From NCBI GenBank assembly GCA_007751255.1, contig CP036296.1, positions 806,001 through 870,000 of the forward strand: DNA of 64,000 nt. Reading direction: 5' to 3'. Below are positions 36,340 to 54,427 of this stretch, one piece after another. A model generated the notes under the pieces. The model was not told where the DNA came from. It did not search any database and saw only the letters and a program-made list of their open reading frames with translations. A program made the translations under genes and the position numbers. The DNA is from Engelhardtia mirabilis (lineage in GTDB: Bacteria; Planctomycetota; UBA1135; GCA-002686595). How positions within the stretch are numbered: the first letter of the stretch is position 1; each line of letters begins with the position of its first letter.

Positions 36340-36345
36340 ATCGCG

Positions 36346-37851
36346 ATGGAAAACCTGCTCGTACTGCCGATCGTGATCCCGCTGGTGACTGCCGGCTTCT
36401 GCCTGCTCGCCTCGCGTCGGATTCGGTTGCAACGCAGTCTTTCGCTGTTCGGCATGGTGGCGTTGACGATCGCCACCTTGGCCCTGTTCGACGCGGTCCG
36501 CAGCGAGGGCATCCTGGTGATCCAGGCCGGCGCCTGGCCGGCGCCCTACGGGATCACACTCGTGGCCGACCGGCTCAGCGCGATGATGTTGCTCCTGAGC
36601 GCGATCGCGGGCCTGGCGGTGACCGCCTACGCCGGTTGGTCGGTGGGGGAGCGCCGTGAGCGCTTCCACTTCTACCCGCTTTTGCACGTGCTGCTGCTCG
36701 GTATCAGTGGCTCGTTCCTGACCGGCGACCTGTTCAACCTGTACGTCTGCTTCGAGGTCATGTTGATGGCCTCCTTCGTGCTCTTGTGCCTGGGTGGCGA
36801 GCGCGCGCAGCTCGAGGGCGGCGTCAAGTACGTGATCCTGAACCTGATCTCGTCGGCCATCTTCCTGACCGCGACCGGCCTGCTCTACGGCGCCGTCGGG
36901 ACGCTGAACATGGCCGACCTGTCGGTGCGGATCGCCCAGTACGAGAACCGCGAGGTGATCAACTCCCTGGCGATGCTGTTCCTGGTGGCCTTCGGCTTGA
37001 AGGCGGCCCTGTTCCCCTTCGCCTTCTGGTTGCCGGCCTCGTACCACACCCCGCCCTTTGCGGTCTCGGCGATCTTCGCCGGCCTGTTGACCAAGGTCGG
37101 GGTCTACGCGCTGCTGCGAGTGTTCACGATGCTGTTCGTGGGCGACCCGGACTTCACCCACACCGTCATTGGCATCCTGGCCGCCGCATCGATGGTCTTC
37201 GGCGCCCTGGCCGCCCTGTCGCAGAAGGACATCCGGCGCGTCTTCGCCTTCCAGATCATGTCGACGGTCGGCTTCATGGCCCTGGGCATCGCCCTCGGCA
37301 CGCCCCTGGCGATCGCCGCCGTGGTCTTCTACCTGGCGCAGGACGTGATCTTGAAGTGCAACCTGTTCATGCTCGGAGGCGTCGCCGACAAGCTGCGCGG
37401 CTCCGGCAACCTCGACAAGCTGGGGGGCTTCTGGAAGACCAAGCCCTTCTTCTCGATCCTGTTCCTGATCAGCCTGTTGACCCTGGCCGGGGTGCCGCCC
37501 CTGCCGGGTTTCTGGCCCAAGCTCGCGCTCCTGCGCTCGACGATCGAGACCGGTGAGGGTGTGCTCGTGGCAGCAGTCGTGCTCGCCGCCTTCTTGACTC
37601 TCTTCTCGTCCATCCGGATCTGGTCCGGTGGGATCTGGCGCGACGCGCCGCCGCCCGATCTCGAGCCGACCGACCTGGCGGAACGGGAGAAGGACGCGCG
37701 CTGGATGATGGTGCCCGCCGCCGGCCTGAGCGGCCTGCTGTTGGCCTACGCCCTCGCGGCCGGTCCCGTGTTCGACTACGCCGAGGCCGCCGCGGACCAA
37801 CTACTCAATCCGCAGGTCTACGTCCAAGCGGTGCTGGGGGAGGGCAACTGA
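36346..37851 (+). CDS. mrpD: Mrp Na+/H+ antiporter subunit D (MrpD)
   Basis: A 501-residue NuoM/N-like transporter subunit with about 14 helices. Key motifs are LYVCFEVMLMASFVLLCLG with the conserved membrane Glu, FGLKAALFPFAFWLPASYH with the conserved Lys, and SQKDIRRVFAFQIMSTVGF. These residues form the proton path shared with complex I antiporter-like subunits. The gene starts seven bases after mrpC and ends two bases before mrpE. Full length for the family, with no defects seen. Confidence 0.93.
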   Translation: MENLLVLPIVIPLVTAGFCLLASRRIRLQRSLSLFGMVALTIATLALFDAVRSEGILVIQAGAWPAPYGITLVADRLSAMMLLLSAIAGLAVTAYAGWSVGERRERFHFYPLLHVLLLGISGSFLTGDLFNLYVCFEVMLMASFVLLCLGGERAQLEGGVKYVILNLISSAIFLTATGLLYGAVGTLNMADLSVRIAQYENREVINSLAMLFLVAFGLKAALFPFAFWLPASYHTPPFAVSAIFAGLLTKVGVYALLRVFTMLFVGDPDFTHTVIGILAAASMVFGALAALSQKDIRRVFAFQIMSTVGFMALGIALGTPLAIAAVVFYLAQDVILKCNLFMLGGVADKLRGSGNLDKLGGFWKTKPFFSILFLISLLTLAGVPPLPGFWPKLALLRSTIETGEGVLVAAVVLAAFLTLFSSIRIWSGGIWRDAPPPDLEPTDLAEREKDARWMMVPAAGLSGLLLAYALAAGPVFDYAEAAADQLLNPQVYVQAVLGEGN

Positions 37852-37852
37852 G

Positions 37853-38323
37853 ATGCTGCTCGACACCCTCTTCATCGCCTTCGCGTGGGTGCTGTTCACG
37901 GGCGAGCCGACGCTGGTCAACTTCGGCTTCGGCGCCATGATCGGCTTCCTGTCGATGCGGTTGGTTAGCACCGACCGCACCCTGTCCTGGCGCTTCGTCA
38001 AGAAGACTCCGCAGTTCATCGGGCTGGCCCTCTACTTCTTCTGGGAGCTGGTGGTGGCCAACCTGAAGATCGCGCGGGCGGTCCTGGGGGATCCGTCGAA
38101 GCTGCAGCCGGCGATCATCGCCGTGCACCTCGACGTCGACGACGCGGACGAGATCGTGACCCTCGCCAACCTGATCACCCTCACGCCCGGAACGCTGAGT
38201 CTCGACGTTTCCACCGACCGCAAGACGCTCTACGTCCACTGCGCCGACTGCCCCGATCCCGAAGCCATGCGGCAGGAGATCAAGGCTGGCTTCGAGAAAC
38301 GGGTTTTGGGGGTGTTCGCATGA
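37853..38323 (+). CDS. mrpE: Mrp Na+/H+ antiporter subunit E (MrpE)
   Basis: A 156-residue subunit: two to three membrane helices followed by a cytoplasmic domain. The typical family run is ANLKIARAVL, then the segment from IVTLANLITLTPGTLSLDV, then YVHCAD. The ATG lies one base after the mrpD stop. Its own stop overlaps the mrpF start (ATGA), so translation is coupled along the operon. Confidence 0.92.
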   Translation: MLLDTLFIAFAWVLFTGEPTLVNFGFGAMIGFLSMRLVSTDRTLSWRFVKKTPQFIGLALYFFWELVVANLKIARAVLGDPSKLQPAIIAVHLDVDDADEIVTLANLITLTPGTLSLDVSTDRKTLYVHCADCPDPEAMRQEIKAGFEKRVLGVFA

Positions 38324-38604
38324 CGCTCGAGACGCTGATTCGATTGGGCGTGCTGCCCATGCTCTGCCTGGCCATCGTGCTGGCGTTCGTGCGCCTGTTG
38401 CGTGGACCCCAGTTGCCCGATCGGGTGGTGGCCCTCGACTTGCTGACATCGCTGCTTCTGGGACTGATCGTGTCCCTGGCGATCTACGACGAGAAGCCGA
38501 TCATGATGGACGTGGCCCTGGTCCTGGCCCTGGTCTCGTTCATCGGCACCATCGGTTTCGCCCGCTACTTGGAGATCCGCGCATGGCCTGGTCCGAAGTC
38601 CTGA
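38320..38604 (+). CDS. mrpF: Mrp Na+/H+ antiporter subunit F (MrpF)
   Basis: A 94-residue subunit with three membrane helices and the family motif RLLRGPQLPDRVVALDLLTS, with a conserved Asp in the second helix. It overlaps mrpE by four bases at its start and mrpG by 22 bases at its end. Normal family length. Confidence 0.92.
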   Translation: MTLETLIRLGVLPMLCLAIVLAFVRLLRGPQLPDRVVALDLLTSLLLGLIVSLAIYDEKPIMMDVALVLALVSFIGTIGFARYLEIRAWPGPKS

Positions 38605-39002
38605 CGGTGGTGCTGCTGGTGCCCGGGGCCGCGCTGATGCTGATCGGCGCGATCGGGGCGATCCGGCTGCAGGACACCTACCTGCGGATGTCCGCGACGT
38701 CCAAGGCCGCGACCCTGGGCGTGGTGCTGATGCTGGCGGCGGGGGCCGTGCACTTCGGCGACATGGGCACCTCCACCCGCGCGGTGGCGACGATGCTGTT
38801 CATGCTGCTGACCGCGCCAGTCGCGGCCCACATGATCGGACGCGCCGCCTACCTGGCCGGCGAGCCCCTGTGGGTCGGCACCCGCACGGACGATCTGAAG
38901 GGCATGTACGAGGAGGACAGCCTGGAGCTGGCCTCGCCGGAACAGAGGGTGCCGGACCCGACGGTGCCCGACGCGAGCGCGAGGGTGGCCGAGAAGGGCT
39001 GA
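38583..39002 (+). CDS. mrpG: Mrp Na+/H+ antiporter subunit G (MrpG)
   Basis: A 139-residue last subunit of the Mrp operon, with three helices and the family motif GAIGAIRLQDTYLRMSATSK near the N-terminus, then RAVATMLFMLLTAPVAAHMI. The C-terminal 40 residues are acidic and extend beyond the common family length. With it, all seven subunits mrpA-G are present in the standard order in under 6 kb. Confidence 0.92.
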   Translation: MAWSEVLTVVLLVPGAALMLIGAIGAIRLQDTYLRMSATSKAATLGVVLMLAAGAVHFGDMGTSTRAVATMLFMLLTAPVAAHMIGRAAYLAGEPLWVGTRTDDLKGMYEEDSLELASPEQRVPDPTVPDASARVAEKG

Positions 39003-41598: not shown

Positions 41599-42438
41599 AT
41601 GATGGCCACCCCTATCCGATCCGACGACGCGACTGCGACGCCCAACGCCGTGCCTGGACCCGAACATGGCCTGCGCCGTCCGCCGGCGGTCGAGTTCGAG
41701 CTGGTGGAGCGCTACTACTCCGTGCGCGTGGCGCGCACCGTGGAGGAAGTGCTCGAGGCACAGCGGGTGCGCTACGAGGTCTTCAACGTCGAGCTGGGTG
41801 AGGGCCTGTCGACGTCCAGTTCGTCGATGCTCGACGCGGACGTGTACGACGAGCACTGCGACCACCTGCTACTCGTCGAGAAGACCAGCGGCGCGATCGT
41901 CGGTACCTATCGCCTCCAGACCGCCGCGATGGCCCGCGCCGGGTCGGGGTTCTACTGCGCCGGCGAGTTCGACCTCTCCGGGATCGGTGAAGAGCGCCTC
42001 GAGGACAGCGTCGAGCTGGGCCGCGCCTGCATCCTGCGCGAGCACCGCATGGGGCACGCCCTGTTCACCCTCTGGCGCGGCGTCGCGCGCTACGCCCAGG
42101 CCACCGGCAAGCACCACTTCTTCGGCTGCTGCTCCCTGACCGGCACCGATCCGCGTCTGGGCTTGATCGCCGCCCGTTGGCTCGAGGGGCGCGGGAAGCT
42201 GCACCCTGACGTCCGGGTCGAGCCGGTCGAGGGTCACGGCTGCTTCGGCGAGCCGGCCACCGAGGCCGAGGTCGCCGCCTTCGAACCCCCGAACCTCTTT
42301 GGCGCGTACCTGCGCTACGGGGTCCTGGCCTGTGGCCCGCCGGCCGTGGACCACGAGTTCGGGACGATCGACTTCCTGGTCCTGTTGGACACGAGGACCG
42401 TCGAGCCCCGCTTCCGGCGCCTGATCTTCGAGGGCTGA
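41599..42438 (+). CDS. olsB: Ornithine lipid synthesis N-acyltransferase (OlsB-like GNAT)
   Basis: A 279-residue GNAT-fold enzyme of the OlsB/hemolysin family. It is expected to acylate the alpha-amino group of ornithine with a 3-hydroxyacyl-ACP to give lyso-ornithine lipid. Visible family motifs are RYEVFNVELGEGL, then DEHCDHLLLVE, then VGTYRLQ, then ELGRACILREHRMGHALFTLW, then FFGCCSLTGTDP. The first 35 residues are a less conserved leader. An OlsA-type acyltransferase follows at once, which supports ornithine-lipid (phosphate-free membrane lipid) synthesis. It follows a long promoter-bearing gap. Confidence 0.85.
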   Translation: MMATPIRSDDATATPNAVPGPEHGLRRPPAVEFELVERYYSVRVARTVEEVLEAQRVRYEVFNVELGEGLSTSSSSMLDADVYDEHCDHLLLVEKTSGAIVGTYRLQTAAMARAGSGFYCAGEFDLSGIGEERLEDSVELGRACILREHRMGHALFTLWRGVARYAQATGKHHFFGCCSLTGTDPRLGLIAARWLEGRGKLHPDVRVEPVEGHGCFGEPATEAEVAAFEPPNLFGAYLRYGVLACGPPAVDHEFGTIDFLVLLDTRTVEPRFRRLIFEG

Positions 42439-42517: not shown

Positions 42518-43210
42518 GTGGTCTGGACGTTGGTCGCGCCCTGCGCCTGGGCCCTGGGGCTGCGCCGGGCCTGGCGGGACCGCTGCGTGCACTGGTGGGG
42601 GAGCGCCCTGGTCGTGGCCCTCGGCATACGTGTCCGCCGGGTGGGAGAGATCCCGACCGGGGGCTGCCTGATCGTCTCCAACCACCTCTCCTACGTGGAC
42701 ATCCTGGTCCTGGCCTCCCAGCGGCCCCTGATCTTCCTCTCCAAGGCGGAAGTGGCCAGTTGGCCCGGGATCGGTTGGATGGCGCGGGCCGTCGGGGTCC
42801 TGTTCGTTCAGCGGGGGGACAAGCGCAGCCTGCCGGCCGTGGCGGCCCTCCTGGGCGCCGAGCTGGAGGCCGGTCGGGCCGTCGTGCTCTTCCCCGAAGG
42901 CACCAGCAGCCGGGGCGCCGAGGTGTTACCCTTTCGCGCTTCACTACTTGCGCCCGCGGCCGAGGGACAGGCTCCTGTTGCTTATGCAGCCTTGAGCTAC
43001 CGCACCCCGGAAGGGCATCCTGCTGCCAGCCAGTCCGTCTGCTGGTGGGGGGACATGACCTTCGCCGACCATCTGATCCGCCTCTTGAAGCTCCCGTACG
43101 TCGACGCGGAGATCCGCTTCGGCAGCGAGCGCTTCATCGATCGAGACAGGAAAGTCCTGGCCCAGCGCCTATGGCAAGCCGTGCAAGCACAGTTCGTTCC
43201 GGTGGCATGA
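42518..43210 (+). CDS. olsA: Lyso-lipid O-acyltransferase (OlsA/PlsC-like)
   Basis: A 230-residue or slightly longer PlsC-family acyltransferase with SNHLSYVDILVLA (the H(x)4D catalytic motif), FLSKAEVASWPGIG, then FPEGTSSRG. With the OlsB-like gene upstream it should complete ornithine lipids by acylating the 3-hydroxy group. The GTG at 42518 is the first ordinary start, but the same frame is open back to 42425 and reads RLILRGSALVLITLSQFV, which completes the first membrane helix. A rare start (CTG at 42470) or a missed base is therefore likely. Its stop overlaps the next ATG. Confidence 0.82.
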   Translation: MVWTLVAPCAWALGLRRAWRDRCVHWWGSALVVALGIRVRRVGEIPTGGCLIVSNHLSYVDILVLASQRPLIFLSKAEVASWPGIGWMARAVGVLFVQRGDKRSLPAVAALLGAELEAGRAVVLFPEGTSSRGAEVLPFRASLLAPAAEGQAPVAYAALSYRTPEGHPAASQSVCWWGDMTFADHLIRLLKLPYVDAEIRFGSERFIDRDRKVLAQRLWQAVQAQFVPVA

Positions 43211-43797
43211 GTGCCTCCCCCGAACGACGCGAGACCCTCCTCGCCGCCCAGAACGTGGTGGTGTTGGAGCAAGGGCTCGAGGTCTTCGAGCGCCTGGGTG
43301 GAACCTCCGCCGACGGCCGCTCCCTGGCGGCGCTGTATACGGCGGTGCCCGACGGTCTGACCCAGAGCGGCGTCGGCGGACACTTCCGTCACATCCACGA
43401 CTACTACCGCTGCTTCCTCGGCGGCCTGGAGTCCGGCCGCGTCGACTACGACCTGCGCGCGCGCGATCCCCGCTTCGAGACCGAGTTGGCCTACGCCGGC
43501 ACGGAGCTGCGCGGCACGATCGAACGCCTGTGCGAGATCGTCGGCCGCGACGATGAACTGGTCGTGAAGATGGACGAGGACCACAGCCCCGGTGCGCCGG
43601 ATCCGTGGTCGCGGTCGACGGTGATGCGCGAGCTGCGCTTCCTGCTCAGCCACACGATCCACCACTACGCCCTGATCGCCATGATCCTGAAGGTGCAGGG
43701 CTTCGACTGTGGCTCGGGCTTCGGCGTCGCGCCCTCGACCCTCGAGTACTGGGAGACTCGCACCTCGTGTGCACCGTCACCTGGGTCGGATCAGTAG
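43207..43797 (+). CDS. DinB family (DUF664-like) four-helix metalloprotein
   Basis: A 196-residue DinB-like protein. The His triad pattern is visible as HFRHIHDYYR near residue 60 and SHTIHHYALIA near residue 156. These four-helix proteins bind a metal and some act as thiol transferases; the substrate here is unknown. The start overlaps the OlsA stop (ATGA), and the end overlaps the next gene by 31 bases, so it is part of the same operon. No regulatory signal of its own is seen. Confidence 0.8.
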   Translation: MSASPERRETLLAAQNVVVLEQGLEVFERLGGTSADGRSLAALYTAVPDGLTQSGVGGHFRHIHDYYRCFLGGLESGRVDYDLRARDPRFETELAYAGTELRGTIERLCEIVGRDDELVVKMDEDHSPGAPDPWSRSTVMRELRFLLSHTIHHYALIAMILKVQGFDCGSGFGVAPSTLEYWETRTSCAPSPGSDQ

Positions 43798-44498
43798 GCG
43801 GCTTCGAGCTCTTCACCAACCGGGACGAGCTACGCACCAGGCCGCCCGCTCATCCGCCGCGGCTGCAGCACACCCCGAGCGGGCTGCGCTTCCTGGCGCC
43901 GGTCGATGAACAGGGGGGCGGCACGTGGATCGCCGCCAACGAGTGCGGCGTGGCCCTGTGCCTGCTGAACCACTACCAGGCGGCGCCCCTGCCGGCGGGG
44001 ATCCAGCCGCGCTCGCGCGGGTTGGTCGTTCAAGATCTGATCGATGCGAGCAGCTTGGACGAGGCCTTCGACGCCCTGCAGGCCATGGATCTGAGCGCGG
44101 TGCGTGGTTTTCGGCTGATCGGCCTCGAGCCCGGCGGCGATCCGCGCCTCGGTGCCTGGGACACCCGCTCCCTGGAGCTGCTCGCTGGCGACGCGGTGCG
44201 CGCGCCGCTGATCTCGTCGGGCTTCGACTACCCCGGCGTCGAGCGCGCGCGGCAACGGACCTTCGAAGAGCTGCAGTCCGAGCTGGGCGGCGTCAGCCCG
44301 CGGATGCTCGAACAGTTCCACGCCAGCGAGCGTCCCGAGCCCGGGCCCTACGCCGTCTCGATGACGCGCGACGACGCCTGGACCGTCAGCCACACGCGCG
44401 TGGTCGTCTCCGCAGACGCCGTCCAGATGCACTACCACAGCGGACGGCCGTCCGCCGGCGGACCGATCGTCTCCGAGCAGTTGCCGCTGCGGCCATGA
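43767..44498 (+). CDS. NRDE/TANGO2-like family protein
   Basis: A 243-residue protein of the NRDE (TANGO2) superfamily, recognised by an N-terminal Cys right after the start (MCTVTW, with Cys2) and by LFTNRDELRTR. The later GGGTWIAANECGVALCLLN is also typical. Members look like N-terminal-nucleophile hydrolases, and eukaryotic TANGO2 is linked to lipid and haem handling. It overlaps the DinB-like gene at its start and the fusion gene at its end (ATGA), so all are co-translated. The GTG start is chosen because it exposes the Cys. Substrate unknown. Confidence 0.78.
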   Translation: MCTVTWVGSVGGFELFTNRDELRTRPPAHPPRLQHTPSGLRFLAPVDEQGGGTWIAANECGVALCLLNHYQAAPLPAGIQPRSRGLVVQDLIDASSLDEAFDALQAMDLSAVRGFRLIGLEPGGDPRLGAWDTRSLELLAGDAVRAPLISSGFDYPGVERARQRTFEELQSELGGVSPRMLEQFHASERPEPGPYAVSMTRDDAWTVSHTRVVVSADAVQMHYHSGRPSAGGPIVSEQLPLRP

Positions 44499-47155
44499 GC
44501 CAGCGCTCTCGCGGTCGCGTACGTCGGGGACTGGTCGTCCTGGCCGGGATCTACGCGATCCTGCTCCTGGCCTCGCACGTCGTGCGCGCGGTGCGCGCGG
44601 AGTCGGTGCCGAAGCTCGGGCCGGCCCAACACGCGACCGAGCTGCACGAGGTCGAAGGTCAGCGGCGACTGGCTGCCACGACGCGCGTCGTCTACGAGGA
44701 CCACGGCCCGCGCGAAGGTGCGCCGGCGCTGGTCTGTCTGCACGGCAGCCCGGGCAGCCTGGGTGACTTCCGCGAGATGCTGCCGATCCTGTCGGAGCAC
44801 CTGCGCGTGATCACCGTCGACCTGCCGGGCTTCGGCAAGTCCGGCCTCGACCTGCCCGACTACTCGCTCGTCGCCCACGCGGACTACGTGGTGCAGCTCC
44901 TCGACCAGTTGGGCTTGGAGTCCGTGCACCTGCTGGGCTACTCCATGGGCGGCGGCGTCGCGCTGGAGTCGGCGGCCGAGCTCGGTCCCCGCGCGAAGTC
45001 GGTCACCCTGCTGGCGGGGATCGGCGTGCAGGAGCTGGAGCTGCTCGGGCAGTACTCGGTCAACCACGCGATCCACGGCCTGCTCCTGGGCGCGCTGACC
45101 CTCGTGCGCGAGGGCGTGCCGCACTTCGGCGCCTACGACGGGGCCTTCTTCGGCGTCCCCTACGCGCGCAACTTCTACGACTCGGACCAGCGGCCCCTGC
45201 GCGGGGTCCTGGAGCGGCTCGAGGTGCCGCTCCTGGTGATCCACGCCGAGAGCGATCCGCTGGTCCCGATCGCCGCGGCCCGGGAGCACGCGCGCATCGT
45301 GCCCCAGGCCGAGCTGCGGATCGTCCAGCCGGGGGCCGACGACCCGGCGGCCGCCGGCCCGCCCCCGGCGATCCGCGGGCACCTGTTGCCCTTCATGGAC
45401 GCGCCCCTGGTCGCGCCGATCGTGGCCGACTTCGTGGAGCGGGTCGAGGCCGGTCGGGCCACGGACCGCGCCCACGCCGACCCCGCGCGCGTGGCAGCGG
45501 CCGAGCGCCCGTTCGACCCTGCCGAGGCGCCGATCCAGGGCATGGGGCTGATCCTGGCCTGCGTGCTGATCGCCCTGGCGACCCTGGTCTCCGAGGACCT
45601 GACCTGCATCGCCGCCGGGGCGATGGTGGCCCAGGGTCGCATCGAACTGCTGCCCGCCGCCGCCGCCTGCTGGGCCGGGATCCTGTTCGGCGACATGCTG
45701 CTGTTCGGAGCCGGCCGCCTGTTCGGCTCGCGCGCCCTGCACCGCGCGCCGCTCAAGTGGGTCCTGACCGAGCGCGTTGTGACCCGCGCCGGCACCTGGT
45801 TCGAGCACCGCGGCCTGCCGGCGATCTTCCTGACCCGCTTCATGCCGGGCATGCGCCTGCCGACGTACTTCGCGGCCGGCGCCCTGCGCGCGAACTTCTT
45901 CCTGTTCGCCCTCTACTTCGCGATCGCCGCGGGCGTGTGGACGCCGATCCTGGTCTGGCTCTCGAGCCTGATCGGCGGCAGCCTCGAGGAGAACCTGGCG
46001 GTCTTCGAGCACGCCCTGCCGATGGCTCTGGTGGGGACGCTTCTGGTCGGGCTCTTGTTGGTCAAGGTCCTGATCCCCGCCACCACCTGGCGCGGACGCA
46101 GGCTCTTGGTGGGGTCGGTGCGCCGCAAGCTGCGCTGGGAGTTCTGGCCGCCCTGGTTCTTCTACCCGCCGGTGGTGCTGTACGTGATCTGGCGCGGCCT
46201 GCGCGCGGGCTCGCTGACGGCCTTCACCTCCGCGAACCCGGGCATCCCCGGCGGCGGCTTCGTGGGCGAGTCCAAGGCGCAGATCCTGGCCAAGCTCGAG
46301 GCGGCCGGGGATCCGATCCCGGCCTGGACCCTCTTGCCCGGCGCCGAGTCGGCGGGGGAGCGACTCGCGCGCGTGCGCGGCCTGATGGCGGAGCGCGGTC
46401 TCGGGTACCCCCTGGTGATCAAGCCCGACGTGGGCCAGCGCGGCTCCGGCGTACTCGTGACCGCGGACGAGGCCGAGGTGCTCGCCTACCTCGAGGCCAC
46501 CAACCTGGACCTGATCGCGCAGCAGTGCCTGGACGGCCCCGAGTTCGGCGTGTTCTACGCCCGCCGCCCCGGCGAGCCCACCGGCCGCGTGCTCTCGATC
46601 ACCGAGAAGCAGCTCGCCACCGTCACCGGCGACGGCGAGCACACCCTCGAGCACCTGATCCTGGCCGACGAGCGCGCCGTCTGCATGGCCCGCTACTACC
46701 TCGACAAGAACGCCGAGCGCGTCGACGACGTGATCGCTGCCGGCGAAGTGGTGGCCCTCGGCGACCTCGGCACCCACGCCCGCGGCGCGATCTTCCTCGA
46801 CGGCGCGCGCCTGCTCACACCGGCCCTCGAGGCCGAGGTCGACCGCATCGCGAAGGCCTTCGACGGCTTCTACTTCGGCCGCTTCGACCTGCGCGTACCA
46901 AGCGCCCAGGCCCTCTCCGAAGGCCGCGAACTCCGCATCATCGAACTCAACGGCGTGACCAGCGAGATGACCCACATCTACGACCCCAAGCACTCGGTCC
47001 TCGAGGGCTACCGCGTCCTCTTCGCCCAGTGGAGACTCTGCTTCGAGATCGCCGCCGCCAACCACGAGGCCGGCGAGCGCCGCCCGAGCGCCTTCAGCCT
47101 CCTGCGCGACTTCCAACACTACCGCCACCGCCAGGACGAGCATCGGGGGGGGTGA
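44495..47155 (+). CDS. Alpha/beta hydrolase - DedA - ATP-grasp triple-domain fusion
   Basis: An 886-residue single chain with three recognisable parts. Residues 1-35 contain a membrane segment. Residues 65-320 form an alpha/beta hydrolase with LHGSPGS oxyanion region, nucleophile GYSMGG (Ser150), acid in AESDPLVP (Asp254) and RGHLLPF (His296). Residues 345-530 form a DedA/SNARE-associated domain (FLTRFMPGMRLPTYFAAGA). Residues 545-886 are an ATP-grasp ligase-like domain (GYPLVIKPDVGQRGSGV, then RIIELNGVTSEMTHIYD). It ends the operon begun by the ornithine-lipid acyltransferases. Possible role: making or flipping an amino-acylated envelope lipid, by inference only. Confidence 0.85.
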   Translation: MSQRSRGRVRRGLVVLAGIYAILLLASHVVRAVRAESVPKLGPAQHATELHEVEGQRRLAATTRVVYEDHGPREGAPALVCLHGSPGSLGDFREMLPILSEHLRVITVDLPGFGKSGLDLPDYSLVAHADYVVQLLDQLGLESVHLLGYSMGGGVALESAAELGPRAKSVTLLAGIGVQELELLGQYSVNHAIHGLLLGALTLVREGVPHFGAYDGAFFGVPYARNFYDSDQRPLRGVLERLEVPLLVIHAESDPLVPIAAAREHARIVPQAELRIVQPGADDPAAAGPPPAIRGHLLPFMDAPLVAPIVADFVERVEAGRATDRAHADPARVAAAERPFDPAEAPIQGMGLILACVLIALATLVSEDLTCIAAGAMVAQGRIELLPAAAACWAGILFGDMLLFGAGRLFGSRALHRAPLKWVLTERVVTRAGTWFEHRGLPAIFLTRFMPGMRLPTYFAAGALRANFFLFALYFAIAAGVWTPILVWLSSLIGGSLEENLAVFEHALPMALVGTLLVGLLLVKVLIPATTWRGRRLLVGSVRRKLRWEFWPPWFFYPPVVLYVIWRGLRAGSLTAFTSANPGIPGGGFVGESKAQILAKLEAAGDPIPAWTLLPGAESAGERLARVRGLMAERGLGYPLVIKPDVGQRGSGVLVTADEAEVLAYLEATNLDLIAQQCLDGPEFGVFYARRPGEPTGRVLSITEKQLATVTGDGEHTLEHLILADERAVCMARYYLDKNAERVDDVIAAGEVVALGDLGTHARGAIFLDGARLLTPALEAEVDRIAKAFDGFYFGRFDLRVPSAQALSEGRELRIIELNGVTSEMTHIYDPKHSVLEGYRVLFAQWRLCFEIAAANHEAGERRPSAFSLLRDFQHYRHRQDEHRGG

Positions 47156-47689: not shown

Positions 47690-48859
47690 TCAACCTGTGG
47701 AGACGAGAGTCATCGCCGCAGCCAGCGCCAACGCCTCGGTGCCCGACCCCAAGGGAAAGCGCTCTTCACCGGGATAAACGACGAAGCGGGCGTCGGCTTG
47801 CACGTCGTCGCAGGCCTGGTAGAAGCCCCGCGAGGGGCGCGGGTTCGCGCCGCGCTTGATCTCGAAGGCCCAGCGGCGGTGGTCGGGGAGGGTGATGAGC
47901 AGGTCGATCTCCGCGCCGGCGGAGGTGCGGAAGAAGTGGAACTGGCTGAAGAGCGGCGCTGCGGCGATGAGGTTCTCGATCACGAAGCCCTCCCAGCTGG
48001 CGCCGACGACAGGATGACCCAGCAATGTCTCGGTGTCGGCGATGCCTAACAGGGCATGCAGGAGCCCGCTGTCGCGAACGTAGAGCTTGGGCGAGCGCGT
48101 CAGACGCTTGCCGATGTTCGCGGTCCACGGCGCCAGACTTCGGACGAGCAAGAGGTCGACCAGGAGTGACAGGTAGCGATTGACCGTCCTCCCATCCAGG
48201 CCCACGTTGGCGGCGAGCTTCGCCGTATTGAGCGGTGAGCCCTGCAGGTGGGCGAGCATGGTCCACAGTCGGCGCAGGACCTCGGTCGGCAGGCGCGAGC
48301 CGAGTTGGGGAAGGTCGCGCTCGAGGTAGGTTCGCAGGAAGCCCTGTCGCCAGAGCAAGCTGTTGGCGTCGTCGGCGGCCAGGAAGCTGAGGGGGAAGCC
48401 GCCGCGCGTCCACAGGGAGGTGGTGCCAGTAGGCTCGCCCCCGACCTCGAGGGCGTCGAGGGGTGCGAGGTCGAGATAGATGATCCGGCCGGCGAGGCTC
48501 TCCGACGATTGCCGCAGGAGTGCCGGCGAGGCCGAGCCGAGGATCAGGAACTGGGCGTCGTTCTTGCCTTGTCGCCGACGATCGTCGATGACGCCGCGCA
48601 AGGTGCTGAAGAGCTCAGGTGCGTTCTGGACCTCGTCCAGCACGACCAACCGCCCCGCGGTCGAGGCCAGGTAGGCGTCGGCATCGCCGAGCTTGGCGCG
48701 GTCGCCCTCTCGCTCGAGGTCCAGGTAGGTGGCCCCCCGTTCGTCCGCGAGTTCGAGCGCCAGGGTCGTCTTGCCAACCTGGCGCGGGCCGAGAAGGGCC
48801 ACGGCGCTGTGGTTGGCGAGGAGGCCAGTCAGCAGAGGGCGTATCCGGCGGTCAAACAT
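47690..48859 (-). CDS. AAA_14 / DUF4143 family ATPase
   Basis: A 389-residue protein from the ATG at 48859; a TTG at 48895 would add 12 residues but lies inside an inverted repeat. The AAA_14 ATPase domain has the P-loop GPRQVGKTTLAL and Walker B RLVVLDEVQN, then the sensor-like LILGSASP. The C-terminal DUF4143 domain has GASWEGFVIENLI then FFRTSAGAEIDLLI, a restriction-nuclease-like core with conserved Glu, Asp and Lys. Such genes are common, mobile and poorly understood; nucleic-acid or defence roles are suspected. It stands alone. Confidence 0.85.
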   Translation of the reverse strand: MFDRRIRPLLTGLLANHSAVALLGPRQVGKTTLALELADERGATYLDLEREGDRAKLGDADAYLASTAGRLVVLDEVQNAPELFSTLRGVIDDRRRQGKNDAQFLILGSASPALLRQSSESLAGRIIYLDLAPLDALEVGGEPTGTTSLWTRGGFPLSFLAADDANSLLWRQGFLRTYLERDLPQLGSRLPTEVLRRLWTMLAHLQGSPLNTAKLAANVGLDGRTVNRYLSLLVDLLLVRSLAPWTANIGKRLTRSPKLYVRDSGLLHALLGIADTETLLGHPVVGASWEGFVIENLIAAAPLFSQFHFFRTSAGAEIDLLITLPDHRRWAFEIKRGANPRPSRGFYQACDDVQADARFVVYPGEERFPLGSGTEALALAAAMTLVSTG

Positions 48860-48860
48860 G

Positions 48861-48896
48861 CTTGCAAAAGCTACATCATCATGCGTCTTTTGCAAG
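48861..48896. promoter_or_regulatory. 10-bp inverted repeat adjoining the DUF4143 ATPase start
   Basis: CTTGCAAAAG at 48861-48870 pairs with CTTTTGCAAG at 48887-48896, separated by 16 bp. The inner arm ends one base before the ATG at 48859, leaving no room for a normal ribosome site. The element is far less GC-rich than its surroundings. It is best read as an operator over the promoter of a leaderless or autoregulated gene, or as a target site for the encoded protein. Confidence 0.7.
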
Positions 48897-48942: not shown

Positions 48943-50673
48943 TCAGGGCGCCGCCGGCAGCGGCTGGCCCGGGCTCCAGCCGCCGAGTCGCAGCGCGGCC
49001 AGGTACTCCAGCGTCCGCTCGCGCTCGGCGTGTGAGAAGAGCAGCAGCAGGTCGCCGGGTCGCGACCAGGCGAGGGCCTCGAGCACGCAGTCGAACTCCT
49101 CGCCGCCCTGGGCGATCGCCTCCGGCGGGGCGCCGGCGGCGAGTAGCTCGCGCTCGATCAAGGCCGTCATGGCGCCGGGCTCGCGGCCGCGCAGGTAGAC
49201 CTCCATCGACTTGATCAGGATGCGGTCGGGGCGCGCGGCCCAGGTGGTGCGGCAGAGCTCGGTCACCGAGGCGTCGTCGCGGTCGCCGGCTTGGCCCAGC
49301 AGGACCAAGAGTCGGTCGGAATCCATGCCCGCGGCCATCTCGAGCATCGCCCGCTGGCCGTGGGGGTTGTGGGCGAAGTCGACCAGGGCGGTGACGCCGC
49401 CGAAGCCGAAGACGTTGAGTCGGCCGGGGTTGTCGCCCGGGTCCAGGCCGAACGCGTGCAGGCCCTCGGCCATGGCGGCGTGGGGCAGGTCCAGGCCGTC
49501 GGCGATGGCGACGGCCGCCAGGGCGTTGGCCACGTTGTGAGTCGCCGCGCCGCCGAGGGTCGAGGGGATCTGGTCGACGCGGGCGATCTCCGTGCGCTCG
49601 TCACCGGAGTAGAGCACCAGCACGCCGTCCTCGAGCACGCAGGCCGAGCGCTCGCCGTCGGGGACGGCACCGAGGCCGCCGCAACTGAACCAGGTGCGCG
49701 GGAGGTCCAACTCGAGCCCGCCCTCGCGTACCAGGTCGTCGTCGGCGTTGAGCACTACGCGGCCGCCCGGACCCACGGCCTTGGCCACGGTCAGCTTGAT
49801 CTCGGCCAGGTCGCGCACGGTCCAGCAACCCCACTCGCCCAGGTGGTCCTCGGCCACGTTGAGCACGCAGGCCACATCGGCCGACTCGACGCCCAGCCCG
49901 CGACGGAACATGCCGCCGCGCGCGGTCTCGAGCAGCCCGATCTGAACTCGCGCGTCGCGCAGCACCGTGCGCGCGCCCCCGGGACCGGAGTAGTCGCCCT
50001 CGTCGAGGATCTCGTCGCCCACCCGGATCCAGTCGGTGGAGGACACCCCCGCGGTCAGGCCCGCGGCCTCGGCGATCGCGGCCAGCATGCGGACGGTGGT
50101 GCTCTTGCCGTTGGTCCCGGTCACGACGGCGGTCGGCACGTTCGTGACCTTCGACCACGGGACCTGGGCCACGTCCGGCGGCGCGGCGGCGGGCCACAGC
50201 CGGCAGCCGGCGCCGTGGCCCACGGAGACGGTGTCGTCGTCCACCAGGAAGGCGGCGCCGTGCTCCAGCGCCGCGGCGTGCAAGGCCAGCAGCGCCGGGC
50301 GAGCCTCGGCGGCGATCTCGCCCTGGACCCGGAGCAGCTCGCCCTCGAGGTCCGCCTGCTCCACCTCGCCCCCGTCGGCCAGGGCCCTGGCCGTGAGGCT
50401 CCAGGCCAGCTCGTTGACCTCGCAGGCGGCGTAGAGCGCGTCGATCGGCGCCTCCATGATGAGGCTCACGCCGTCGGGGTGGCGGCGGGCGTGCAGGGGC
50501 GTGCCGAGCCAGCCCACCGCGGCGGCGACCTCGGCCGCCACCGCGCGCCAGGCCGCGATCGCGCGCTCCTGGAGTTCGGGCGCGATCTCGAGCTCGAGGA
50601 TCGCCCCCGGCCGGTCGGTGTAGGGGTGCAGGCCGGTGATGCGCCGGGAGTCCCTGACGGTGGGGGAGGTCAT
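48943..50673 (-). CDS. Mur ligase family protein related to the C-terminal half of cyanophycin synthetase, no ATP-grasp
   Basis: A 576-residue protein of the Mur ligase family. An N-terminal domain (about 10-140) is followed by the ligase core with P-loop VTGTNGKSTT (about 184-191), LLETARGGMFRRGLG, LNVAEDHLG and DFAHNPHGQRAM. These blocks match the Mur part of the neighbouring cyanophycin synthetase (LETARGGLLKRGMG, LNIDADHLG, DYGHNP). The ATP-grasp half that adds Asp is absent. It lies 22 bp downstream of cphA in the same operon. It could ligate a second amino acid or a dipeptide, or modify the polymer. Confidence 0.85.
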   Translation of the reverse strand: MTSPTVRDSRRITGLHPYTDRPGAILELEIAPELQERAIAAWRAVAAEVAAAVGWLGTPLHARRHPDGVSLIMEAPIDALYAACEVNELAWSLTARALADGGEVEQADLEGELLRVQGEIAAEARPALLALHAAALEHGAAFLVDDDTVSVGHGAGCRLWPAAAPPDVAQVPWSKVTNVPTAVVTGTNGKSTTVRMLAAIAEAAGLTAGVSSTDWIRVGDEILDEGDYSGPGGARTVLRDARVQIGLLETARGGMFRRGLGVESADVACVLNVAEDHLGEWGCWTVRDLAEIKLTVAKAVGPGGRVVLNADDDLVREGGLELDLPRTWFSCGGLGAVPDGERSACVLEDGVLVLYSGDERTEIARVDQIPSTLGGAATHNVANALAAVAIADGLDLPHAAMAEGLHAFGLDPGDNPGRLNVFGFGGVTALVDFAHNPHGQRAMLEMAAGMDSDRLLVLLGQAGDRDDASVTELCRTTWAARPDRILIKSMEVYLRGREPGAMTALIERELLAAGAPPEAIAQGGEEFDCVLEALAWSRPGDLLLLFSHAERERTLEYLAALRLGGWSPGQPLPAAP

Positions 50674-50695
50674 CGTGATCGAGGTCGCGCCGCTG

Positions 50696-53497
50696 TCAGT
50701 CGGCCAACTCGTCATCCTCTTCCACCGGCGCCAGCAGCACACCGCGCTCGTCGTGGATGAAGTCGTCGATGCCGGGCAGCTCCATCTCGAAGGCCGTCGC
50801 CGCGGGCGCGGCTGGCTGGGGCGCGCTGACTGTGGGCTTCAGCTCCACTTCGCCTACGCTCTCGAACTCGGTCACCTGGCGCCAGGTGCGCTCGATCGCG
50901 TCGGCGAAGACCAGCAGCAGGTCGTCCGGGCGCGCCATGTCGAGGGCCGCGTCCACCGCTGCGACCTCGCGCTCGATCACGGTGATCTTCTGCTCCGGGA
51001 CGCCGTTCTCCAGCAGCGAATCGCGCAACAGGTGCGGCACCTCCAGGGGCCCGCGGCCGCGCGGGTTGTCGTCGCGGCGCACGATGTAGTGGTCGTAGTG
51101 CCCGGCCACGGAGCTGGCCATCTGCTCGATGTCCTGGTCGCGGCGATCTCCGGGAGCCGCCAGCAGGATCAACCGGCGTCCCTTGACGTGCAGTTGGTCC
51201 GTCAGGTGCACCATGGCCGCGATCGCGGCCGGGTTGTGGCCGTAGTCGACGATCACCTTGAAGGGGTGGTCGTCGTAGACGTTCATGCGCCCGGGGGCCT
51301 CGGCGAAGGTCGTGTCGAAGGTGCGTAGGCCGATGCGGATGTCGTCCAGAGTCGCGCCCATCGAGAAGGTGATGGCCGAGGCGAACAGCGCGTTCTGCAC
51401 GTTGTGGCGCGCCTTGCCGTCGATCGTGGCCGGGATCTCGTGGGTCCACAGGAGCGGGATGTGCGCCCCGTTGTCGTAGATCGTGATCATCTGGCCGCCC
51501 ATGCCCTCCTCGAGCACGACCGCCCTGCCGCCGGCACGGATGTGCTCCTTCACCAGCGGATGGGTGGGGCTCATGGTCACGTAGCAGATCTGCTCGGCGG
51601 AGGTGAACGAGGCCATGCGCAGGCAGTGCTCGTCGTCGGCGTTGAGCACGGCCGTGTCCTTGGCCACCTCGATCACCACCCGCTTGACGCGCGCGAGCTG
51701 CTCGAGAGTCTCGATCCCGCGCAGGCCCAGGTGGTCGGCGTCGATGTTCAGCACCGCGCCGACGTTGCAGCGCCGGTAGCCCATGCCGCGCTTGAGCAGG
51801 CCGCCGCGGGCGGTCTCGAGCACGGCGGTGTCCACGGACGGGTCGCGCAGCACCATGCGCGCCGCCGTCGGCCCGGTCATATCGCCCTCGACCGAGAGCT
51901 TGCCGTCGATGTACACGCCGTCGGTGGTCGTGAAGCCCACCCGGCGCCCGGCCATCTTCAGCACGTGGGCGGTCATGCGGGTCGTGGTCGTCTTGCCGTT
52001 GGTCCCGGTGATCGCGGCGATCGGGATGCGCCGCGGGCTGCCGGGCGGGAACAGCATGTCGATCACCGGCCCCGCCACGTCGCGCGGATGGCCCTCGCTG
52101 GGCGCCACGTGCATGCGGAAGCCCGGAGCGGCGTTGACCTCGCAGATGGCACCCTTGGTCTCCTTGTAGGAGCGGGTGATGTCCGTGGTCAGGAAATCGA
52201 CGCCGCACACGTCCAGGCCCACCGCCTTGGCGGCCCGCTCGGCCATGGCGCGGTTGTCGGGGTGGACCACGTCGGTCATGTCGACCGCGGTGCCGCCGGT
52301 GGAGAGGTTGGCGGTGGCACGCAGGAACTGGATCTGGCCCTGCTCGAGCACCGACTCGGGCTCCAGCCCGGCCTCGTTCAGCAGGCGTCGCGCCTGGTGG
52401 TCGATGTCGAGCTTGGTCAGGACCTTCTCGTGCCCGATGCCGCGGCGCGGGTCCTCGTTGGTGATCTCGACCAGCTCGGCGATCGAGTGCTTGCCGTCGC
52501 CGACGACGTGGCCGGGCACGCGCTTGCTGACCGCGATCAACTTTCCGTCGACGACCAACATGCGGTGGTCGAGCCCGCGGATGAAGGCCTCGACCAGGAT
52601 CGTGCGGCTGTGCTCGCGGGCCTTCTCGAAGGCCGTCAGCACCTGCTCGTCGGTCTCCAGGCCGATCGACACGCCGCGCCCGTGGTTGGCGTTGAGCGGC
52701 TTGACCACGACCGGGTAGCCGATGCGCCGCGCGGCGCGCACGGCGCGGTCGGCGTCGCGCACGATGCGCTGTTGGGGCACGGGCAGGCCCAGGTCGCCGA
52801 GGATCTGGTTGGTCTCCTCCTTGTCGGAGGCGATCTCGACGGCGATGTGGCGCGTCTCCGAGGTGATCGTGGCCTGGATGCGCTTCTGGTAGCGGCCGTG
52901 CCCGAACTGCACCAGGCTGTAGTTGTTGAGCCGCAGCCAGGGGATGTCGCGCTCCTCGGCGGCCTTGATCAGGGACGCGGTGCTGGGGCCGAAGGCCAGG
53001 CGCTGGGCGCGGCGAATGAAGGCGTCGCGCTCCTCGTCCCAGTCGAACGCGTCCTCGGCGTCCTTCGGCCGCAACTCCGCGGGCAGCAGCGAGAGGATCA
53101 ACTTCAGGGCCAGCTCACCGGCCTCGAGTCCGACCTCGGGCTCGTCGTAGTCGTAGACCACGTGGTACTGCCCGGGTGTGCCCGTGGAGCGCGTCTGCCC
53201 GAAGGACAGGTCGGCGCCGGCCAGGTTCTGGATCTCGATCGCGCAGTGCTCGAGCACGTGCCCCAGCCAGGTGCCTTCGTCCTCGCGCATGCGGCGCAGG
53301 AAGCCCCCGGGCTCGCCGTAGGAACAGCCGTGCTCTTCGAGGGTCGGAATCGCTTGGAGCAGCGCGTCGATCCACTTCGAACCTAGCTTGACCGTGGGCC
53401 ACTCCTCGAGCGCGCCGAGGTCGACGGTGAGGCCGATCAGCCGCCAGTTGGCGTAGATGTTCGGGCCGAGATAGACGGACTGGGAGACGATCCTCAT
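50696..53497 (-). CDS. cphA: Cyanophycin synthetase (CphA1-type)
   Basis: A 933-residue enzyme that polymerises Asp and Arg into the storage polymer multi-L-arginyl-poly-L-aspartate using ATP. The layout is complete: an N-terminal domain (1-160), an ATP-grasp region (about 210-490, with YPVVVKPLNANHGRGVSIGL) and a Mur-ligase-like C-terminal part from about 495 (ITGTNGKTTTTRM, then LETARGGLLKRGMG, then VDYGHNPAAI). The 60 or so residues at the C-terminus are an acidic, Pro/Ala-rich extension. Cyanophycinase and isoaspartyl dipeptidase genes lie just upstream in the same direction, giving synthesis and breakdown in one locus. Confidence 0.94.
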   Translation of the reverse strand: MRIVSQSVYLGPNIYANWRLIGLTVDLGALEEWPTVKLGSKWIDALLQAIPTLEEHGCSYGEPGGFLRRMREDEGTWLGHVLEHCAIEIQNLAGADLSFGQTRSTGTPGQYHVVYDYDEPEVGLEAGELALKLILSLLPAELRPKDAEDAFDWDEERDAFIRRAQRLAFGPSTASLIKAAEERDIPWLRLNNYSLVQFGHGRYQKRIQATITSETRHIAVEIASDKEETNQILGDLGLPVPQQRIVRDADRAVRAARRIGYPVVVKPLNANHGRGVSIGLETDEQVLTAFEKAREHSRTILVEAFIRGLDHRMLVVDGKLIAVSKRVPGHVVGDGKHSIAELVEITNEDPRRGIGHEKVLTKLDIDHQARRLLNEAGLEPESVLEQGQIQFLRATANLSTGGTAVDMTDVVHPDNRAMAERAAKAVGLDVCGVDFLTTDITRSYKETKGAICEVNAAPGFRMHVAPSEGHPRDVAGPVIDMLFPPGSPRRIPIAAITGTNGKTTTTRMTAHVLKMAGRRVGFTTTDGVYIDGKLSVEGDMTGPTAARMVLRDPSVDTAVLETARGGLLKRGMGYRRCNVGAVLNIDADHLGLRGIETLEQLARVKRVVIEVAKDTAVLNADDEHCLRMASFTSAEQICYVTMSPTHPLVKEHIRAGGRAVVLEEGMGGQMITIYDNGAHIPLLWTHEIPATIDGKARHNVQNALFASAITFSMGATLDDIRIGLRTFDTTFAEAPGRMNVYDDHPFKVIVDYGHNPAAIAAMVHLTDQLHVKGRRLILLAAPGDRRDQDIEQMASSVAGHYDHYIVRRDDNPRGRGPLEVPHLLRDSLLENGVPEQKITVIEREVAAVDAALDMARPDDLLLVFADAIERTWRQVTEFESVGEVELKPTVSAPQPAAPAATAFEMELPGIDDFIHDERGVLLAPVEEDDELAD

Positions 53498-53587
53498 GTC
53501 GAGTCGGGCAGGAGCGAACGCGGAGCCGCGGGCGAGTGCCTCGCCACGGGTCCTGGGAGAATGCGGATCCGCAGATCCGCGTCGGTT

Positions 53588-54427
53588 TCAGCGGGCGGCC
53601 GTCGGACGAGCCGCGCGAGCTTCGCGGGTCTGGGTGTTGTAGGTCCCGCCCTCGATCAGGATGTGCAGCCGGATCCCGATCAGGGAGACCGGCTCGGAAC
53701 GTTTGGCCGAGTCCATGGTCGAGGACTCCAATTCGGAGGGGTCGACGACCGTGATCGCGCCCGAGCCCACGACCTCGATGGTCTCGTCGGGCGCGATGAA
53801 GGCGGCCGTGTCCTCGTCCAGGCCCACGCCGGTGGCGAAGGGATTGAACGACAGGGCCGTCAACAGGCGCCCGAGGCGGTCGCGCTGGCGGAAGTGCTGG
53901 TCGACCAGGACCGTGCCGGTCAGGCCCAGGCCCGGCGCGAGCTGCACCATGTTGGCGTGGGGCGTGGGGCCCTCGTCGCCGAAGGCGATCATGTGCTCGG
54001 AGATGTAGGCCGCGCCGGCGGAGGTGCCGGCCACGTGCAGACCCTCCGAGTTGCGATCGCGCAGCATGCGGGCCACGGGCGTGCCGCCCAGGGTGGTCGA
54101 CAGGCGCAGTTGGTTGCCGCCGGTCATGAAGACGCCGTCGACCTCGCTCAGGACCTGCAGCCAGTCCTTGCGCGTGCAGTCCTGCCGGTTCTCGAAGGGC
54201 AGGCTGATGGCGCGGCTGACCCCCAGCTCTTCGAACAGCTCCACGTAGCGTGGACCGGTGTCCTCGAGGCGTGAAGCGGTGGGGATCACCGCAATGGTCG
54301 ACTTCTCGCCGCCGCAGCGGTCGACGAAGGCGCGCAGGATCTGCGGGTCGCGGTACTTTTCCTCCGCGCCCCCGATGGGGACGATCCAACCGCGCTTGGG
54401 ATTGTGAATGAAGTCTCTGGCGCTCAC
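53588..54427 (-). CDS. cphB: Cyanophycinase (S51 peptidase)
   Basis: A 279-residue serine peptidase that cuts cyanophycin to beta-Asp-Arg dipeptides. The nucleophile elbow HVAGTSAGAAY has Ser136; the family blocks IVPIGGAEEK, FMTGGNQLRLS and DQHFRQRDRLGRL are present. It starts four bases inside the end of the dipeptidase gene (ATGA overlap). Its product would be the substrate of that dipeptidase. Length and motifs are normal, and no signal peptide is seen, as expected for cytoplasmic granules. Confidence 0.94.
   Translation of the reverse strand: MSARDFIHNPKRGWIVPIGGAEEKYRDPQILRAFVDRCGGEKSTIAVIPTASRLEDTGPRYVELFEELGVSRAISLPFENRQDCTRKDWLQVLSEVDGVFMTGGNQLRLSTTLGGTPVARMLRDRNSEGLHVAGTSAGAAYISEHMIAFGDEGPTPHANMVQLAPGLGLTGTVLVDQHFRQRDRLGRLLTALSFNPFATGVGLDEDTAAFIAPDETIEVVGSGAITVVDPSELESSTMDSAKRSEPVSLIGIRLHILIEGGTYNTQTREARAARPTAAR

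Follow-up and report, generated by a model that had tools for sequence, protein, structure and literature searches.

Introduction

Aminolipids are widespread, and the ornithine lipids among them bear a free carboxyl group. To our knowledge, it is largely an open question which proteins attach a second amino acid or taurine to aminolipid head groups or translocate these lipids. Taurine-ornithine and serine-glycine head groups are known chemically, and taurine transfer is listed as a known modification (PMC12493201). The same source assigns a GH3 protein and an alpha/beta hydrolase to the OlsH/OlsI ornithine-lipid route of Singulisphaera acidiphila. Synthesis and movement of a lipid are combined in MprF, which makes and moves lysyl-phosphatidylglycerol (PMC2774229, PMC8131360). 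The present analysis concerns a gene of the planctomycete Engelhardtia mirabilis that encodes an alpha/beta hydrolase, a DedA membrane domain and an ATP-grasp domain in one chain (hereafter the fusion). It is located in a stretch of 64,000 nucleotides (GCA_007751255.1, contig CP036296.1, positions 806,001 to 870,000 of the forward strand), called the window below, to which all coordinates refer unless a locus is named.

The fusion resembles MprF in its proposed layout, in which one chain carries a cytosolic domain that would add to the head group and a membrane domain that would move the product outward. The two differ in that an ATP-grasp domain replaces the synthase domain, which in MprF uses aminoacyl-tRNA, and a DedA domain replaces the MprF flippase, while the proposed substrate is an aminolipid and not phosphatidylglycerol. 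Neither the synthase nor the flippase domain of MprF is matched among the six Pfam families listed for the fusion, and the resemblance is functional, not by descent. The fusion is also none of the enzymes of the OlsBA, OlsF and OlsHI routes, yet it accompanies all three: its operon in the window contains OlsB-like and OlsA-like genes, and relatives lie beside OlsF-like genes or beside GH3-plus-hydrolase genes.

Domain organisation of the fusion

The fusion gene (44495..47155, + strand) encodes a single chain of 886 amino acids, with no internal stop in its open reading frame (ORF). An N-terminal transmembrane helix (residues 12-30, 44528..44584, from hydropathy over the alignment; residues 3-34 are helical in the structure model) precedes an alpha/beta hydrolase domain (residues 77-301, 44723..45397), a DedA/VTT membrane domain (about residues 345-533, 45527..46093) and an ATP-grasp region (residues 535-886, 46097..47152), all on the + strand. 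The joining of three domains in one chain, which the original prediction had claimed, is borne out by Pfam matches above cut-off for the first two domains and by a structure model for the third. An assembly or frameshift artefact can be ruled out because all three domains recur together in 51 non-redundant called ORFs from five bacterial phyla; the fusion is a real protein family, with relatives in Planctomycetota, Acidobacteriota, Bacteroidota, KSB1 and Verrucomicrobiota.

The identity of the ATP-grasp region required the most evidence. No Pfam ATP-grasp model matches the whole window protein at E<=0.01, and the best one for the isolated domain, RimK, reaches 15.3 bits against a cut-off of 21, which leaves the domain outside any named Pfam ATP-grasp family; some relatives exceed the RimK cut-off (L140, 30.3 bits; L058, 23.3 bits). 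The NCBIfam cyanophycin-synthetase model gives a weak match at residues 634-723 (28 bits, cut-off 850), and a profile built from 24 relatives matches solved ATP-grasp enzymes over only about 100 residues (best 7ta5, 9e-9; the cyanophycin synthase 7wac, 4.3e-8). The AlphaFold model of the region, built on the alignment of the 24 relatives, has a mean predicted local distance difference test score (pLDDT) of 92.7 and a predicted template modelling score (pTM) of 0.89. A Foldseek search with this model matched 476 PDB entries at E<=0.001, the top one with E 6.7e-11 and a template modelling score (TM-score) of 0.53 by query length, the nearest folds being cyanophycin synthetases, then GshF-type enzymes and D-Ala-D-Ala ligases. 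The possibility that the ATP-grasp call over-reads a weak match was rejected: Pfam alone is insufficient for the window protein, but the structure, the PDB profile and some of the relatives support the call, and the modelled domain is predicted to have the ATP-grasp superfamily fold.

All 80 aligned ATP-grasp domains share Lys643, Glu683, Lys705, Arg796, Asp798, Glu817, Asn819 and Glu824, and Lys594 is found in 79, the remaining row being a gap. By analogy to D-Ala ligase, the first seven are presumed to serve in ATP and Mg binding, and the domain keeps this presumed set in all aligned members; an ATP-grasp domain deprived of ATP-binding residues, which was foreseen as a possible objection, was not found. 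Where the ATP-grasp region begins, the alignment also reveals a conserved WEFWP-FYPP stretch, which may sit at the membrane.

The membrane domain matches Pfam VTT/DedA at residues 370-489 (E 1.9e-12, 48.2 bits against a gathering score of 33.9), and Glu367, Asp368, Arg448, Pro451 and Arg454 are identical in all 51 full fusions. It thus belongs to the DedA superfamily, which includes the UptA-type undecaprenyl phosphate (C55-P) flippases, but it falls far below the cut-off of the NCBIfam UptA-like model (residues 359-500, 43.4 against 250 bits) and is not an UptA equivalog by that measure.

In the hydrolase domain, Abhydrolase_1 (residues 77-175, E 1.5e-28) and Abhydrolase_6 (residues 79-301) both exceed their Pfam gathering scores, and the alignment places the catalytic triad at Ser150, Asp254 and His296. 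Foldseek relates the domain to esterases and to the membrane phospholipase PlaF (6i8w), and a profile match to PlaF spans residues 16-175, taking in the N-terminal membrane helix. PlaF, a membrane-anchored phospholipase A of Pseudomonas, likewise consists of an N-terminal membrane helix followed by an alpha/beta hydrolase, but it is a stand-alone protein and not the single best sequence or fold match of the fused domain.

The complete Ser-Asp-His set announced by the original prediction is present in the window protein but is not universal, since position 150 is Ser in 39 of the 51 full fusions, Gly in 11 and Lys in one. The 12 fusions without the nucleophile (loci L139-L150) form one Bacteroidota clade, in 11 members of which the catalytic His is also lost, the stretch around residues 180-194 being still recognisable. 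Neither of the other two domains showed a comparable loss, so DedA plus ATP-grasp is regarded as the core of the fusion. A separate alpha/beta hydrolase gene (259-269 amino acids, GVSLG motif) was also observed in 11 of these 12 loci, just before olsB and on the opposite strand.

Averaged over 21 sequences, the numbers of Lys/Arg against Asp/Glu are 2.5/0.4 for residues 1-11, 1.2/2.0 for residues 33-45, 5.5/2.2 for residues 410-437, 0.6/1.4 for residues 495-504 and 6.9/1.0 for residues 528-550. This pattern fits a topology with the hydrolase outside and the ATP-grasp domain inside. The outside placement of the hydrolase is also suggested by its likeness to PlaF, the catalytic domain of which faces the periplasm (PMC9132575). 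The full-length AlphaFold model (mean pLDDT 85.6) has a pTM of 0.55, and hence does not fix the mutual placement of the domains; among its best 50 Foldseek matches listed, hydrolase-fold chains were found and no DedA-domain match.

Distribution and variants of the family

In a six-frame scan of 88 loci, the ATP-grasp domain was found in 83, together with the hydrolase and DedA in 54, with DedA only in 4, with the hydrolase only in 4 and alone in 21, some of these loci being cut by contig ends; the scan gave no ATP-grasp match in L057, L060, L061, L063 and L089. The 54 full-fusion loci amount to 53 without a duplicate, L077 being dropped as a copy of L050, and they include L053, L077 and L092, which are outside the 51 called ORFs. 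Genes of the relatives were called with a simple codon-score caller, which performed poorly for L081, so the ORFs of this locus were read directly. L054, which contains unknown residues, was left out of the structure alignment.

Clear examples of proteins with DedA and ATP-grasp only are L083 and L084, and ORFs of about 540-590 residues in Acidobacteriota have the same composition. Among the other loci of this kind, L055 begins at a contig end and the match in the genome of L079 (G285) has an in-frame stop, while the genome of L084 (G185) encodes a relative of the hydrolase domain on another contig. A quick tree built from 80 ATP-grasp domains sets 16 standalone Bacteroidota proteins apart and places L078, L081, L082 and L083, which are associated with OlsF-like or GH3 genes, within one planctomycete set of ten.

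Several variants were observed in passing. The planctomycete loci L085-L088 encode proteins of 826-838 amino acids with hydrolase and ATP-grasp domains and no recognised VTT domain (two of the four were scanned with Pfam); a gene cluster lies ahead of them, one scanned member of which is a radical SAM protein. A lone ATP-grasp relative (L058:4543-5460) is found on a contig labelled Euryarchaeota in a metagenome-assembled genome, in which no OlsB match was obtained. In two Bacteroidota loci, the fusion is followed by a gene for an MlaE lipid-transport permease (L049:10694-11392, scanned; L047, assigned by cluster).

The operon in the window

The fusion is the last of five co-directional genes on the + strand, the last four of which overlap. 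They encode an OlsB-like N-acyltransferase (41599..42438, PF13444), an OlsA-like O-acyltransferase (42518..43210, PF01553), a DinB-like protein (43207..43797), a TANGO2/NRDE-like protein (43767..44498) and the fusion. The start codon of the OlsA-like gene is uncertain, its open frame running about 31 codons further upstream. The four-base overlap described earlier is confirmed (ATGA at 44495-44498), and the overlapped neighbour is the TANGO2/NRDE-like gene. The statement that the fusion follows OlsB and OlsA is correct as far as the operon is concerned, but it passed over the DinB-like and TANGO2-like genes, which lie between olsA and the fusion.

The best matches of the OlsB-like and OlsA-like proteins are ornithine-lipid models, though below the NCBIfam cut-offs (146 bits against 350 for OlsB, 140 bits against 300 for OlsA); the broader GNAT family Acetyltransf_5 and the PF01553 Acyltransferase family, respectively, are matched above cut-off. 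These scores therefore do not settle which amino acid the lipid carries. The OlsB-like protein has one match in its own genome. The DinB-like protein matches Pfam DinB_2 below the gathering score (E 0.0037), and its residues His62, His149 and His153 are conserved in 42 of 42 aligned relatives. The TANGO2-like protein matches PF05742 above the cut-off (E 5.7e-11, 43.5 bits against 22.6), which places it in the same Pfam family as human TANGO2, with the difference that it is a bacterial operon partner. Its GTG start is followed by Cys2, a residue found in 23 of 27 TANGO2-like relatives, the other four perhaps having misplaced starts.

Linkage with aminolipid synthesis genes

Co-occurrence was analysed in samples of 294 Planctomycetota, 199 Acidobacteriota and 148 Bacteroidota genomes. 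A strong OlsB was defined by E<1e-50 in Planctomycetota and E<1e-40 in Acidobacteriota and Bacteroidota, and a fusion by E<1e-100 in Planctomycetota, E<1e-25 in Acidobacteriota and ORF length in Bacteroidota, all thresholds being picked after viewing the match lists. With these definitions, the Planctomycetota and Acidobacteriota fusion sets take in DedA-plus-ATP-grasp proteins and fragments, and strong OlsB leaves out weaker matches, many of them in long OlsF-like ORFs (e.g., those of G288, down to 5.5e-28).

A strong OlsB accompanies the fusion, or the DedA-ATP-grasp part of it, in 54 genomes. The two are less than 4 kb apart on one contig in 52 of these genomes and on different contigs in the remaining two. 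Among the Planctomycetota, strong OlsB was found in 17 genomes, and in all 17 the fusion is on the same contig at a distance of 271-2181 bp. Sixteen of these fusions pass the E<1e-100 threshold; the seventeenth, that of G259, is a piece of 65 residues that runs to the final base of its contig. Ten more planctomycete genomes carry the fusion or its DedA-ATP-grasp part and no strong OlsB. In the Acidobacteriota, the fusion or its part is present in 28 genomes, strong OlsB in 35 and both in 24, in 22 of which the distance is at most 3.7 kb; in the other two, G505 and G430, the genes are on separate contigs. One of the 22, G465, counts as linked through a 53-residue OlsB piece at a contig end, its stronger OlsB match being on another contig. 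In the Bacteroidota, all 13 genomes with the fusion belong to the 17 with strong OlsB, the gap to the ATP-grasp part being 2.4-2.9 kb. Fisher tests of co-occurrence, which ignore kinship, give P values of 9e-19, 1e-18 and 2e-15 for the Planctomycetota, Acidobacteriota and Bacteroidota, respectively. The search for three-domain homologs and their neighbours that the original prediction called for revealed an olsB link in the three samples, and homologs lying mostly away from lipid genes were not found.

The family is also found with other synthesis routes. Among 20 genomes with the fusion or ATP-grasp relatives and no strong OlsB, an OlsF-like gene (E<1e-80) was detected in 10, GH3 in 8 and both in none. 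In L078 an OlsF-like gene lies next to the fusion; its neighbour is the DedA-ATP-grasp protein in L083 and the ATP-grasp protein in L091. L081 and L082 have the gene order alpha/beta hydrolase, GH3, DinB-like, TANGO2-like and fusion, the hydrolases being likened to OlsI (Sinac_1601) by superfamily and place beside GH3 alone. OlsF-like genes are found in 26 of the 294 Planctomycetota genomes (E<=1e-40) and GH3 is more frequent in the phylum, so it is adjacency and not presence that carries the argument; mere presence of GH3 was rejected as evidence, and its adjacency in L081 and L082 alone was used. Four of the eight GH3 genomes belong to one genus (g21), in which GH3 is not near the fusion.

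For all 54 full-fusion loci, the genome encodes OlsB, an OlsF-like protein or GH3, within 9 kb in 43 cases (41 OlsB-type, 2 GH3). DinB-like genes lie near 32 of these loci, TANGO2-like genes near 18 and OlsA-like genes near 37. The link of the fusion to aminolipid synthesis is well supported. Members of the family occur next to three unrelated synthesis routes, a placement difficult to account for other than by action on the product that these routes share.

In more than one phylum, a ferric-reductase-like membrane protein with a Rieske domain (scanned in L041) and a second related gene were seen directly before olsB (e.g., L041:3273-4322, L065:4450-5520 and similar loci). The pair was considered as a possible lipid oxidase and set aside, being patchy across loci.

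Proposed function and alternative explanations

From the domain set, the conserved residues, the confident ATP-grasp fold, the conserved operon and the co-occurrence, we infer, with a probability of about 0.5, that the fusion links a ligase for ornithine-lipid head groups to a translocator and carries a periplasmic lipase-like domain in an accessory role, and that it acts on the OlsB/OlsA-like product of its own operon. OlsB and OlsA would build an N-acyl-amino-acid lipid of the ornithine type in the inner leaflet. ATP-grasp ligases typically couple a carboxylate with an amine; the cytosolic ATP-grasp domain, docked to the membrane through the WEFWP-FYPP stretch, would activate a carboxylate as acyl phosphate, for which the free alpha-carboxyl of the aminolipid is the simplest candidate. 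Coupling of this carboxylate with the amine of an amino acid or a related compound would yield an amide-extended head group, after which the fused DedA domain would carry the product across to the outer leaflet. The periplasmic hydrolase could, in most lineages, trim or transfer an acyl ester. The cytosolic TANGO2-like protein, of the cysteine N-terminal-nucleophile (Cys-Ntn) type, and the DinB-like metal protein would be accessory and might cut or edit the same amide or supply a co-substrate. The earlier suggestion that the pathway serves to build, move or trim an amino-acid-linked lipid gains support from the OlsB linkage and the kept ATP-grasp residues, the chemistry being the conjectural part.

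Several observations weigh against this proposal. Strong OlsB occurs without the fusion in 11 of 35 Acidobacteriota and 4 of 17 Bacteroidota genomes, and 11 of the 54 full-fusion loci have their N-acyl synthase elsewhere in the genome, none being within 9 kb. Of the 20 genomes without strong OlsB, two, namely the fragmented assembly G236 and G362, gave no match to OlsF-like genes (E<1e-80) or to GH3, and the presence of GH3 as such is weak evidence, as it occurs in 90 of 294 Planctomycetota genomes. No OlsF-like gene in these 20 genomes reaches the NCBIfam cut-off and the OlsB-like and OlsA-like proteins of the window likewise fall short, hence the amino acid may be other than ornithine. To these can be added the 12 fusions without the hydrolase nucleophile and the standalone form of the ATP-grasp domain in 16 of the 148 Bacteroidota genomes (L123-L138). 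In nine of these 16 loci a DinB-like gene is near, joined in seven of the nine by a TANGO2-like gene, and an OlsB-type gene is near none of them; a looser gene-call scan adds DinB at L138. The substrate of the ATP-grasp domain in these standalone forms need not be an OlsB product, and because they often sit with DinB-like and TANGO2-like genes, the grouping of the three genes may predate the fusion with DedA or have arisen independently of it. Across whole genomes, an OlsB/OlsF-type match is found in 10 of the 16 against 32 of 119 other unfused Bacteroidota genomes (P 0.008).

The standalone loci also bear on a different explanation, in which the product of the ATP-grasp domain is soluble, a peptide or amino-acid conjugate similar to cyanophycin or glutathione, with DinB and TANGO2 as partners, DedA or LysE-type proteins merely export it, and the OlsBA link reflects shared envelope regulation. 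This would account for the frequent DinB-like and TANGO2-like neighbours and for the nearest folds (cyanophycin synthetase, GshF and Ddl). A LysE translocator would also fit: of four genes scanned downstream of standalone ATP-grasp genes, two match it above the Pfam cut-off, a third narrowly misses that score and the fourth gives no match. However, the LysE-type neighbour at L138 also weakly matches the lipid-addressing Sap family (E 0.0063), the ATP-grasp domain of the fusion is attached to a membrane domain, and the family adjoins three unrelated aminolipid synthesis routes, so a soluble product is considered quite unlikely. The hydrolase domain and the TANGO2-like protein lend themselves to yet another scheme, a recycling module for net turnover, in which DedA would flip lyso- or diacyl aminolipid inward, the hydrolase would remove the piggyback acyl chain (Lands-type), the TANGO2-like amidase would free the amino acid and the ATP-grasp domain would re-ligate or scavenge. 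The fused hydrolase matches PlaF by profile from the N-terminal membrane helix on, as well as by structure, and PlaF remodels membrane phospholipids (PMC9132575); human TANGO2 has a Cys-Ntn-hydrolase fold, i.e., the fold of Cys amidases (PMC13044924), and characterised DedA proteins flip undecaprenyl phosphate (PMC12893004, PMC11474028). Such a module is nonetheless unlikely, as the ATP-grasp ligase is a synthetic enzyme and has the best-kept residues, whereas the hydrolase has decayed in 12 of 51 fusions.

The same decay counts against the suggestion that the lipid has its O-acyltransferase or an acyl editor in the fused hydrolase, similar to OlsI, and that ATP-grasp and DedA act on an unrelated envelope lipid (polyprenyl- or phospholipid). 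In its favour, planctomycete OlsI, an alpha/beta hydrolase, was shown to be an ornithine-lipid O-acyltransferase (PMC12493201), and the VTT domain weakly matches UptA models. An OlsA-like gene is nevertheless present in the window and near 37 of the 54 full-fusion loci, and in L082 the OlsI-like hydrolase is encoded by a gene of its own and bears no close relationship to the fused domain (best E 0.21). The role of ornithine-lipid O-acyltransferase was rejected for the fused hydrolase on these two grounds, and the explanation as a whole is improbable. Compared with these explanations, a head-group ligase joined to a translocator is preferred. In its most ambitious form, one protein would ligate a second amino acid or amine to ornithine-type lipids and flip the product, as an ATP-grasp analogue of MprF producing an undescribed lipid in Planctomycetota, Acidobacteriota and Bacteroidota, and the TANGO2-like enzyme of the operon would edit the same amide; this form is speculative and doubtful.

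Other genes in the window

Beyond the fusion, a convergent cyanophycin cluster extends over 48943-55626 on the - strand. It comprises a second CphA-like Mur-ligase protein (48943-50742), a complete cyanophycin synthetase (cphA, 50696-53497, NCBIfam), a cyanophycinase (53588-54427, TIGR02069 above cut-off) and an amidohydrolase-like gene (54424-55626, assigned by eye), all on the - strand. The fusion's ATP-grasp domain resembles CphA in fold and in a partial sequence match, but the fusion has neither the Mur-ligase domain nor the cyanophycin N-domain, is joined to DedA and a hydrolase, and lies near a separate complete CphA; it is not a cyanophycin synthetase. The possibility that it belongs to the cyanophycin cluster was rejected, since the two run convergently and, among the neighbourhoods listed, L064 alone has the cluster again; it is therefore regarded as a neighbour and not a partner.

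An AAA/DUF4143-type ATPase gene (47690-48895, - strand) lies directly downstream of the fusion and a multi-subunit Na+/H+ antiporter-like operon (35881-39002, + strand) lies upstream, both assigned by eye. Rfam and tRNA scans of the window gave no matches.

Significance

Among open-licence papers, no description was found of DedA or ATP-grasp proteins with ornithine lipid, of a fused lipid hydrolase of this kind, or of a taurine or dipeptide ligase for ornithine lipid; one review of the subject has ATP-grasp in its reference list alone. The fusion is regarded as a new fused enzyme within a known process, aminolipid modification. The family offers an experimentally accessible candidate for both head-group extension and translocation. 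It also places TANGO2-like proteins, the human member of which causes disease, in a concrete lipid setting that is testable in bacteria. If the TANGO2-like enzyme of the operon does edit the amide, N-acyl-amino-acid lipids would be the first natural substrate class for the TANGO2 family.

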